From: Meghimatium bilineatum
Taxonomy: Eukaryota; Mollusca; Gastropoda; Stylommatophora; Philomycidae
Reading direction: 5' to 3'
DNA length: 64,000 nt
NCBI GenBank assembly: GCA_034231615.1
Contig: CM067306.1
Location: 41,588,761 to 41,652,760, forward strand
Part shown: in pieces, positions 45,601-51,600 of the stretch
Position numbering within the stretch: position 1 is the first letter of the stretch
Layout: the number at the start of each line of letters is the position of its first letter
Made by a program: the position numbers and the translations under genes
Notes under the pieces: generated by a model
Told to the model about the DNA's origin: nothing
The model's input: only the letters and a program-made list of their open reading frames with translations
The model's database searches: none

Positions 45601-48600
45601 GTTTAAACATTAGGAAAAAAAATTTATTAGCATAAATTTTGTCATTCACCTAATTAATTATAATTATTGATATCCGTTTCTAAAGCAAGAATATTGGATT
45701 GTCTTTAATAAACACTTTGATGGATTTACATTCATAAATGTTAAAGTTATATATATTTATAAATCGCATCAGAAGTAATGAAAATAGAGAAACAAATTGA
45801 GTCACAACAATCAGTTTTTCCATATGAACACATTCTTCATTGTGGTCAAAATGGAAGCAGAAATATTCTTCAATGTTTTGAGTTAACTGGTTTTAGCAAA
45901 CTGAAATATAACTTGTGGATCGAAATCAAAAATGATATATTGGGGAAAATCTGGTAGAGTTTCTTCATTTTACCAATATATGGGATATTGATCTGGATAG
46001 AGTTGATGCACTTTTTGTAAACAGTTGATTAGAACAAGACAAGTTGAAGGATGAATTTTGTATTGAATTATTTCAGGAAGAGGAAATCACCATTGACACC
46101 TCAGCTCCACAACAAATTGAATTTTTTATCAAACCACAAGAAGAGAAACCATTAGATACTCAGCCCATAGAGGTGATGGAGGATACAGTTACACCAGATG
46201 TTATTGAGAGGCCAAAGGTTAGATTTATGCTGCCTTAATTTTCAAACTAAAACGATCATATTCTATGTAAGAGAAAGACAAGATTTGGTTTCATTTGATA
46301 TTTTCTTTTATGTAATGTATTCTTTGCATAATATTGCTATAACTAAAAAATGTTATTGCCCCATTGGTAAGCTGTCCTACTTCCTCCAGTGTCATATGTA
46401 AGGGATTGTCAAAAAGATAAAATGTATGTTTTCTTCGATAACAGCTTCTTCTATGTGATATGTCCTTTGTGTCCTTGCTGCCAGTGCGTAGTCTCCTTAA
46501 TTCTGTAAACCTTAATCCGTAAAACTGTAACCTTTGACTAATCCTTATTATTCAACATTTATTCTGAACATTTTTCCCATTATCTCGGATTGTGGTAAAA
46601 TATATTCTGATTCAGTAGTTTTACATGATATGTGTAATCAGGAATAGAAATCATATTTCTCTGCCGACTCCATCCATATACCCATAACCCTATCAACGTC
46701 ATAGGGGCACACTATATTCTATGCATTAAAAAACAGTATTCAAGGGATTTATATCTTCAGCCTCCTAGGTATGAAAGAAAACTTACAGAAACCACCCCAA
46801 TGCACATAGGAAGTGGGAGGTAATTGCTCACAATTCCTGGGGATAGTGACCAACTAATGAACCATATCTTGAGTGATGCAGATGAGTAAGGAAATTTTTT
46901 TAGAGGTCCATTCTTTGATGTTGGCTATCCATGATTTTATTTTACCTCTTCTGCTTGCTCCATAAATAACATCTTGTAGACACTAGATTAAAGAAATGTG
47001 GATTTCATAAAATATTGTAGACACTAGTTGAAAGAAATGTAGATTTAAACTTGTGCCTACAATATGTTATTACATCTACATTTCTTCCAACTAGTATCTA
47101 CAATATATTATTAAAGTATATTTATGGAATCATGCAATGATTTATTTATTCTGTTCAAGGTGGAGCCACTAGAGAAGGAGGAACCCATGCTGGAGTCTCC
47201 AATCTTCTCACCTATCCCAGACTCCATCACATCTGTAGCTGATTCATCAGATACTTACTATACAGCTCAGGAAGAGATTGATGAGGAAGTTGTAGAACCT
47301 TCATTAGTTTCTAAAACAATTGACCGGCCCAAAGTGATTCCTCTTGTCTCTGAAGGAATTGAAGAGTCTCCAGATCGAGATGTAGTCATAGAAGATGTTT
47401 CTGAAGAGGAACGTACTCCACAACCAGAAGAGCTCAAAGAGGAGGTAAGTGATTTTAATCTAAGGTATACAACTAGAATGTTCCCACTAATCTGTGCACC
47501 TGTATAATCTTGCTAGATTGTGCATCCACAAACAGTATCTACTACTATTCATTCATTCATTGGTACCATGCTTTCCTGCATAGAGGGTCATGTCTCTCCA
47601 CAGTCCTCTGTTATACATTTAAATATAGTTTCTGATGATTCCACATCATGCTAGGCTTTCAAGCCATCCAACATTTTCTCACATTGTCTTCCTCTGTCTC
47701 TCTTACCCTCGATCTTTCCAGTTGTTACAATGTTCTCCAGCCCACTTCTTCTCATGACATGACCCAGAAACTGTGATTGTCATCTTCTAATACAGTTAAT
47801 AAGTTCTCTATTTCAGTTGACCATTTGTAGAATTATAGCATTAACTCTTAACAGACATGACTTTTTGGTCATTTTAAAAATAATTCTGGAGTCATTTTAG
47901 TAAAAAAATTGTTAAAAATGTAAATTAAATGATACAGGAATGTATCATACATCTATTTATTCAGTATACAATTGCCTATCTATCCTTATCCCAAATGTCA
48001 TCTTTCAATAAAGGGTTAGTCCATAGTTTAAAATTAAATGTGTAATTTGAAATACAAAATTGTGCTGAAATTATATAAATGGCACAATGACAAAGAACAA
48101 AAAAAATTAATATGAAATGAAAATCATATAGAAGTTAGTTTTTATTGTATCTAATGCATTTATGCAAAACATATAAGAAATTTACACCAATAGAGCAAGA
48201 AATGTAAATACAGCCCACATATAAAAAAAGTATATATGCGCTGGGATATTTTTAGTTTTTTTTAAAAAATTGATACTTTAGTTACTTAGCATTCATTTTG
48301 AAAACATTATGGCATACATATTATTTAAAGATCAATTAATACAGTGGTGAGTATTTTTCTATTATTTTTATAATAATGTTATTGTGTTTTTATTTTATTT
48401 CAACTCTGATGAATGAAAGAAATTAGGAGTTCAGTATACATAATGATTTGACAAATAGTTATGCTCTGTGATACTCTGATAAGCAGTTTCTCTTATTATT
48501 GAAACATAAATATGTATCACAAACTTTACATCTAACTCTACTCTTTCTTTCAATTTTTGAATTTTTATAACAAAGTTTACAATTTCTCTGTGTACTTGTA

Positions 48601-51600
48601 AATTCTGGATCCATTGAATGGCGCGAGAAAGTAGCCGGCTTTCCTGCGACAGGAACATCATCATATAATCCTAAATTACCTAATCCCCTAACTAATTCTT
48701 CTGTAAAATTTAACTGATTATATCTATTTGGTCTTTTTAAATCTTCTATATTTGGATTCTTTCTTCTACAATCTTGAAACAATATATAAGCATTTACTCT
48801 AGCTATATCAATGAGATGGAAAAATATAGTTTTCCAGTATTTGTTTGTTTTCCTAAGACAGTTGTATTTACCTATCAGCTGATCGCTTTTATCTACCCCC
48901 TTCATGTACTTATTGTAATCTTTAACAACATTAGGCTGCCTGACTTGAATCTCCCTAAAAACCCCATTTACTTTTGTTCTCCTCTTTATATATGTAAATT
49001 TATTTCCTTTATGGATTGTCGAAATTAATGAAATTGTTTTATTATCTATCCACTGTACTATTAATTGTTCCCCATTCCTCATCCACCTCATAGCCCCTCT
49101 TGTATTACCTTTTTCAAATTCTTTTATATTTTTCAGTTCTACAGGGAAACCTTTCCTATTGCGTAACATAGTCCCACAAGCAAGTACGCCTACTTTCCAT
49201 AAATCTTTCAGTAACTGCACTGAAGTATAAAAATTATCAAAGTAAACCCTATACCCCTGCCTAACTAATGGTTTTATCAAATTCATTACTACCCCATGTG
49301 CTAAACCAAACCCACCTACATTTGTATTATTGTTATTCTTTCCCAAATAAATTTCAAAATCATATGTGTAACCACTAATAGAATCAGCTAATACCCATAA
49401 CTTCATCCCCCACTTTGTCGGTTTATCCTTCATGTACTGCCTAAATGGATATCTCCCCTTATTTCTAACCATTCTTTCATCAATAGCAATATTCTGATTA
49501 GGCTGATATAATTTTTTACATTTTGCTCTAATATAAGTTACAAGCATCCTAACTTTACACAGTCTATCAGTTGATTTCTCCTCGGCTGGATCAGACACTT
49601 TCAAAAAACTCAAAATTGCCTTGAATCTATCCCTAAACATAAAAGATCTAGCCCATAACCCATTCCACAAAGACTTTTTTGACCAGAAAAGGTTGGCATT
49701 TGGGGGATCTATTAGTCCTGCATACATAAGTAAACCACAGAATCTATAGAATTCTGCAGGTGTAAGGTCATACCAGCCAGAATATACTGTGGGACGGTTT
49801 GGTCCATGTTGGCTTGCATAATCATTAGTATATTTACAAATATATGTTACAACATCAAATGTAAACAACAGCTTAAAGAAGTCCACAGGACTTGTAAACT
49901 GTCTGGCATCCTCCCTAGTGAGAACTTCTGATAGCTGCAGCCCAGGCACTCTCTCAGGCAAAAAATTGGGTGGCTTGGATGGTGGTCCCTCATCTGAGTC
50001 ACTGTATCCATAACACCTGTGAACGTAATATAAAGAAAATAGTTTTGATTATAGTATTTATAGAGACCAATTATTTACAAGTACAATTATAGTATAAAAC
50101 ATCAGTCAAATATTTTTGCAATTATACTTACATATACTGCAAAAAAAGGGATAAAGAGCATATTATCACGAAATTATACTTCACAGAAAATGTAAACAGC
50201 GAACAGCTGATCACTTGTTTACTAAGCCTTAGTCTAAGGTGGTACAAGTTTCAAAACACATAAATTCCTATTATGGTTATATCTAATTTATAAATAGTCT
50301 TAAGATTATGAATATAGAATACTATTTTAAATATAGGCGTACTAATTATTACAAATAACCATTACAAGCAATACTAAAAAAAAAAGTATATTTATATTGT
50401 AAACTATCGGGAAACTGAAACTAGAAAATGAAAGCCAGACCTACCTAGGTGTTGAAATTGGAGTATCATCGTAATTCGAGTCATCGGATGTGACAGAGAC
50501 ATCAGAAACATCAGATTCACTAGAATAACAGCTACTTTGTGAAGAATCACTGCTAATATCCATTTTTTATGTTAAAATTAGTGAGAAATTGCGATAGAGC
50601 TTCTGATGGTGACCAGCAAGAACAAAGTAGTAAAATGGCGTATGACGCTTCCTGGCCGAATTATTTCTCGCGAGTTTTTGGACATAATTTTAAATATCAA
50701 AATCAATATTTTGACGTTGTTTTTAAGTTTCTATAGGTAGTATAACCATTTTTCTAAAACAAAATTATAATGGTTTGCTGAAATAGTGAAAAAAATAGTT
50801 AGATCTATATTCTCGTAATACACGTAAAAGTAGTAAAATAGTAGTAACATAGCAGCAAAGATTCCTTGTAAAATTATTAATACGAGATTTCTAAAATAAT
50901 TTTAAAATATCAAAATCTAAATTTTGAAATTGTATTGAAGTTTCTATATCAATATAACCTTTTTCTATAATACAATTATAATGTTTTACTGAAATAGTGA
51001 AGAAAAATATTTTTTTGATATTTTCCAAATCATCGTAACAATGTATACGATTTTATTATGGTCCCGTCTCGTAAGTGTTAATCTTTTTAGCTGCCCATGA
51101 TATTTTTAACATTCTTCTATAAAAATTACATCTCTGTGGCCTCCAGATGTTTTCTTGCAATGTTGTTAATTGTCCATGCTTCACTACCATATAACATTAT
51201 GGGCTCTATGTAACATTTAGTATGCTCTTTCTTACTTCTATTGATAATCATTTATTACACAAGATGTTCCTCCTCTTCTGGAATTCTGCTTTTGCCTGTG
51301 CTGTTAGACTTTTTATCTCAGTGACTCATCTACCATATGAAGTAATAATTGCGCCCAAATATTTATATTTGTCTACTTGTTTAAGAACTGTCCCATTGGC
51401 CTTGATGTTACATTTAGAAGGGTTAGATTCTACTACTGTGGATATTAAATAAAGTTCAAGTGTGATTTACACATGGGGTCATGCAGTTGCCCTTTCGATT
51501 GTCTGATTTTTGCACACAGGCAGGAATGTTTTTTAGATGGAATATAGACAAGTCTTTGAGGGTTATGTCATGGATATTTCTTCTTCTGCGTTCGTTCAAA

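Follow-up and report, generated by a model that had tools for sequence, protein, structure and literature searches.

A probably complete piggyBac-superfamily transposon with a predicted spliced transposase gene, nested in a LINE fragment within a putative intron of a titin-like gene

Transposons of the piggyBac family form hairpin intermediates, are joined to the target at TTAA, and leave TTAA behind after excision. For the piggyBac element of Trichoplusia ni, the excerpts of PMC10140906 give a length of 2,472 bp, a single ORF encoding 594 amino acids, tips of 14 bp, and subterminal repeats of 19 bp; according to the same excerpts, changes to the first two tip bases can impair excision. The first three aspartates of the piggyBac transposase are required, while the fourth is less important and has to be negatively charged, as described in a section of PMC2533014. 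In the Daphnia element Pokey, a 68-bp intron has been detected by RT-PCR, and the tips are imperfect and 16 bp long (parts of PMC3849761 and PMC3575242). Bee piggyBacs, as far as they are covered by the excerpts of PMC10140906, are about 2.23-3.52 kb long, encode about 580 amino acids, and have TTAA sites and tips of about 14 bp.

The element described here is located in a window of 64 kb, which is the whole stretch of DNA that was analysed. Its anatomy is probably that of a complete, autonomous piggyBac-superfamily transposon with a spliced transposase gene, inserted at TTAA into a LINE fragment inside an intron of a titin-like gene (Table 1). In contrast to T. ni piggyBac, it has a length of 3,233 bp, a predicted intron, and imperfect tips. 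It resembles the bee piggyBacs in size and protein length and shares the start CAC of its 5' tip with a large part of them, but left and right tips of the bee elements are highly similar, with 100% identity in 21 species, and the word "intron" is absent from the text of PMC10140906. By description, Pokey is similar in its spliced transposase, imperfect tips, and upstream non-coding repeats, whereas its shorter intron is located towards the end of the coding region, Asn takes the place of the fourth Asp, and it also targets one site in 28S rDNA (parts of PMC3849761 and PMC3575242). The domesticated chordate gene PGBD5 is likewise piggyBac-derived and contains introns, which lie inside the transposase domain according to a part of PMC3902484, whereas the intron of the element lies at residue 40, before the domain start at residue 82. 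Since an intron, imperfect tips, and repeats are found in Pokey, and the bee elements fit in size and protein length, the element belongs to a known kind, and its parts are ordinary for piggyBac transposons. The element itself was not met in the literature searched, in a search that was not designed to settle prior publication.

Table 1. Coordinates of the element, its parts, and its surroundings in the 64-kb window
Feature	Position	Strand	Basis or remark
piggyBac element	47845..51077	- (transposase strand)	3,233 bp; tips, ORF, Pfam, LINE flank join
TTAA target site, left copy	47841..47844	.	sequence
TTAA target site, right copy	51078..51081	.	sequence
5'-side tip CACTTACGAGACGGGACC	51060..51077	-	starts CAC
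3'-side tip CTCTTAACAGACATGACT	47845..47862	+	differs from 5'-side tip at base 2 and further positions
5' end and 5' UTR	50564..51077	-	CpG o/e 1.63; presumed promoter
Subterminal direct repeat, outer copy	50840..51012	-	adjoins 5' tip region
Subterminal direct repeat, inner copy	50626..50800	-	77.5% identical to 50840-51012
Exon 1	50445..50563	-	acidic, Ser-rich N-terminus
Intron, predicted	50017..50444	-	428 bp, GT-AG
Exon 2	48459..50016	-	catalytic and C-terminal Cys/His part; PF13843 at residues 82-450
LINE 3' part, left flank	47552..47844	-	alignment
LINE, right flank	51082..51464	-	alignment
Second LINE copy, relative of empty site	36851..37500	+	aligns through joined flanks
Presumed host exon, acidic	47161..47444	+	ORF and splice sites by eye; without Pfam match
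Host ORF with Ig I-set exon	57755..58099	+	PF07679, E 7.5e-19; top-ranking solved-structure chain is from titin

At the sequence level, membership in the piggyBac superfamily is supported. The transposase has a single Pfam match, DDE_Tnp_1_7 (PF13843; E 3.2e-88, 296.8 bits vs. a cut-off of 22.4), in which model positions 1-349 of 349 are covered. D219, D300, D415, and D418 align with D268, D346, D447, and D450 of T. ni piggyBac, with which the element also shares TTAA, so that the family assignment with four aspartates made in the first-pass annotation holds. Matches at E <= 0.001 were obtained for two solved sequences. The best is piggyBat from Myotis lucifugus (9c0f, E 5.2e-44; query 9-556 vs. 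chain 22-573), followed by T. ni piggyBac (6x67, E 1.3e-35); the identities are 27.0% over 452 aligned positions (BLASTP) and 25.6% over 493 aligned positions, respectively. An acidic Ser-rich N-terminus, the Asp core, and a Cys/His tail are common to the element and piggyBat, although the N-terminal alignment is weakened by low complexity. The C-terminal Cys/His finger noticed earlier is also recovered, with six cysteines near the end (519, 522, 536, 539, 544, and 551), while C536, C539, and H556 are invariant in a three-row alignment of the element, piggyBat, and piggyBac; this Cys part is without a separate Pfam match. Searches for relatives yielded 11 pattern stretches (single-protein search) and 83 stretches (alignment search) in viral contigs and 68 stretches (alignment search) in a collection of genome contigs, none of which was confirmed, and none was confirmed in plasmid and phage collections. 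As these collections consist of viruses, prokaryotes, plasmids, and phages, this result says little about the spread of the element in animals.

Exons 1 and 2 on the minus strand together give 558 codons plus a stop, which bears out the unbroken transposase reading proposed earlier. The first 40 amino acids comprise 9 Asp/Glu, 17 Ser/Thr, and 1 Lys/Arg. Taken alone, the frame of exon 2 is open upstream no further than 50048, and the earliest ATG, GTG, or TTG in it is a TTG at 49961; a complete N-terminus therefore requires exon 1. The 180 bases that begin with the ATG contain 12 GT dinucleotides, of which only the donor at 50444 keeps exon 1 open and matches the phase of the AG before 50016. 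From frame and splice sites we infer that the transposase mRNA is spliced once, and the predicted sites support the proposal of a small acidic first exon and of splicing as a requirement for the full N-terminus. The gene appears capable of producing a transposase. Transcription would start from the CpG-rich 5' end and be followed by one splice, and the product would be a DDD transposase whose N-terminus is acidic and whose C-terminus carries a Cys/His tail. This protein would cut the tips via hairpin intermediates, join them at TTAA, and leave TTAA on excision. In the 5' end, the word AAAATGGCG at 50632, which we take to be YY1-like, is one of a type that is present four times in the window. 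Scanning the 5' end for bacterial promoters, which is irrelevant to a eukaryote, gave 4 sites vs. 4.3 expected. A structure prediction for the exon-2 sequence alone was discarded (mean pLDDT 33.6).

The TTAA on both sides, also part of the first-pass annotation, is present as listed in Table 1. The two tips, read there as imperfect inverted termini, are identical at 11/16 and 13/20 bases, and the 3' tip deviates from CAC at base 2. On their own, the tips are modest evidence, because among TTAA pairs of the window with a spacing of at least 50 bp, agreement over 16 bases is at least as close in 265 of 244,024 ordered pairs and in 11 of the 17,844 pairs 1-6 kb apart. Stronger evidence comes from joining the flanks. 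Once joined, they align with the second LINE copy across the junction (score 310), whereas the right and left flanks alone score 202 and 111, in agreement with an insertion at TTAA into one LINE. Out of 1,215 boundary choices, a single one, moved by 13 and 4 bases, exceeded this score (311), and several others were equal to it or differed by no more than 2. The flank alignment thus places the junction only approximately, and it is the TTAA repeat that pins it exactly. A left boundary at a second TTAA (47848-47851) adds 7 bases and, as judged by eye, shifts the LINE frame; the first TTAA was kept. With the chosen boundaries, the LINE frame is maintained across the junction. The continuous LINE reading claimed earlier is therefore correct locally, but it does not extend over the flanks, which contain 4 stops and 2 frameshifts in about 105 codons when read against the 167-codon open frame of the relative. 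The RTE-like assignment of the first-pass annotation, which would call for an RTE-type endonuclease/reverse transcriptase, was not confirmed, as three flank pieces and the ORF of the relative gave no significant Pfam match. A further LINE piece (34271-34513) shares 86.8% identity with the left flank. The nesting order is clear, with the LINE first and the piggyBac element later, and decay of the LINE probably preceded the piggyBac insertion.

There is a fair case from the predicted domains that the host gene is titin-like, as had been assumed. Pfam searches with 10 host-region frames returned Ig I-set in 7, the RNase H of another LINE in 1, and nothing in 2; these frames are not a random sample, since they were picked by eye from 38 frames (at least 95 codons, both strands) and are all from the plus strand. 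When one Ig frame was compared with solved structures, four titin chains ranked on top, the best being 3b43 (E 3.4e-48, summed over domains), among 150 sequences within the limit of the search, which include cell-adhesion Ig proteins. The placement of the element within an intron rests on a putative GTAAGT donor at 47445, which directly follows the acidic open exon (by eye), and on the downstream Ig frames.

A neutral ORF of 558 codons has a 95% chance of being broken by 4.5% divergence through stops alone, and by 1.0% divergence with 0.15 indels per substitution, an estimate in which indel rates and mutation bias are assumed. Because neutral decay would break the ORF within this range, the transposase ORF is young or selected. 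There are 0 disablements in its 558 codons vs. about 6 in the about 105 LINE codons. Of the two, a young element is favoured over one kept by selection.

The CpG composition bears on this choice. The 5' end contains 14 CpGs vs. 8.6 expected, which is a small excess over 1, and the meaningful contrast is with the background, as the median o/e of the window is 0.20. The 500-bp window at 50601 has the top CpG o/e (1.5) among 635, although other windows exceed the 5' end in CpG count (up to 17, near 55701). Exon 1 (3 vs. 4.2 expected) and the intron (5 vs. 7.1) are intermediate with 0.71 each, followed by exon 2 (11 vs. 43.2; o/e 0.25) and the 3' end of the element (1 vs. 8.4; o/e 0.12); the LINE flanks have 1 vs. 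12.7 and 2 vs. 14.9. The near-background values of exon 2 and the 3' end suggest that the element has long resided in a genome that loses CpG. Of the 41 Arg codons of the transposase, 38 are AGA/AGG, so that CpG can be rare without loss of the protein; together with the CpG depletion and the 3' tip, this codon usage counts against simple youth. In an about 10% divergent repeat copy adjoining the element (51578-51854), CpG o/e is still 0.66. For hemimetabolous insects, DNA methylation is described as high in the abstract of PMC8203789. The CpG pattern would be shown by a transposon family that has long resided in a methylating host and has an unmethylated promoter, but also by a retained gene, and codon bias could explain the body alone.

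Recent mobility, that is, a young insertion with near-identical copies elsewhere and tips that are functional as they stand, is possible but can be proposed only tentatively. It agrees with the intact ORF and the intact TTAA on both sides, and the imperfect 16-bp tips of Pokey (part of PMC3575242) indicate that a mismatch need not be fatal. It fits less well with the mismatch at base 2 of the 3' tip, which makes the mobility of this copy doubtful, with the CpG-depleted body and 3' end, and with the result that no further copies were found within the 64-kb window. The earlier description of the element as recent and possibly active is thus sustained by the ORF, but weakened by the 3' tip and the CpG depletion, which allow for an older element or a retained gene. 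If the 3' tip reads CTCTTAACAGACATG in all copies, the asymmetry is native, while CACTTACGAGACGGG in others would point to decay of the tip of this copy.

A retained or domesticated gene, in which an old single insertion has kept an unmethylated promoter and a selected protein while the body and a dead 3' tip lost CpG, is unlikely. It would account for the CpG peak at the 5' end next to the intermediate exon 1 and intron and the background level in exon 2 and the 3' end, for the AGA/AGG codons, and for an ORF that is intact while the 3' tip is mismatched. However, all four Asp and both TTAA are preserved, the 5' excess rests on 14 CpGs, and the pattern could be a family-wide transposon trait, with codon bias as an explanation for the body. 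Rather improbable is a transposase gene in transition to host use, with a promoter spared from CpG loss and so presumably unmethylated in the germ line, within a CpG-poor titin-like gene, a coding region that is kept intact while its body loses CpG, and a decayed 3' tip that blocks exit. A neutral fossil unbroken by chance would agree with the mismatched tips and the CpG-depleted body and 3' end but is least probable, as 558 codons would be unlikely to escape every stop and frameshift once neutral divergence exceeds about 1-4.5%.

As it stands, the locus adds one more well-preserved piggyBac element with a clear nesting order. Near-identical copies, if they exist, would make it a possible source for a new gene-transfer vector. 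If it is old and conserved, it would be a further case of a domesticated piggyBac transposase, located in a muscle gene and driven by a promoter protected from CpG loss.

Several other features were observed in the window, in which Rfam and tRNA scans found nothing. The repeat of about 275 bp at 51578-51854, tentatively SINE-like, is also present near 7186, 16983, 22087, and 42798, and the five copies are about 87-91% identical. A repeat pair at 4225-5377 and 32735-33908 (82.6% identical) is probably another LINE, because an ORF in the second copy matches RNase H. At 31038-31612, a 48-bp tandem repeat is present in 12 copies, and its minus strand contains an open frame of 206 codons that reads as a 16-residue repeat. 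The stretch 53959-54727 can be aligned with its reverse complement (776 columns, 85.3% matching) and has a 500-bp CpG o/e of up to 0.89. A second CpG-rich stretch (55500-56300; 500-bp o/e about 0.9-1.05, up to 17 CpGs) contains the word AAGATGGCGGC at 55701 and may represent a promoter or a further young element.
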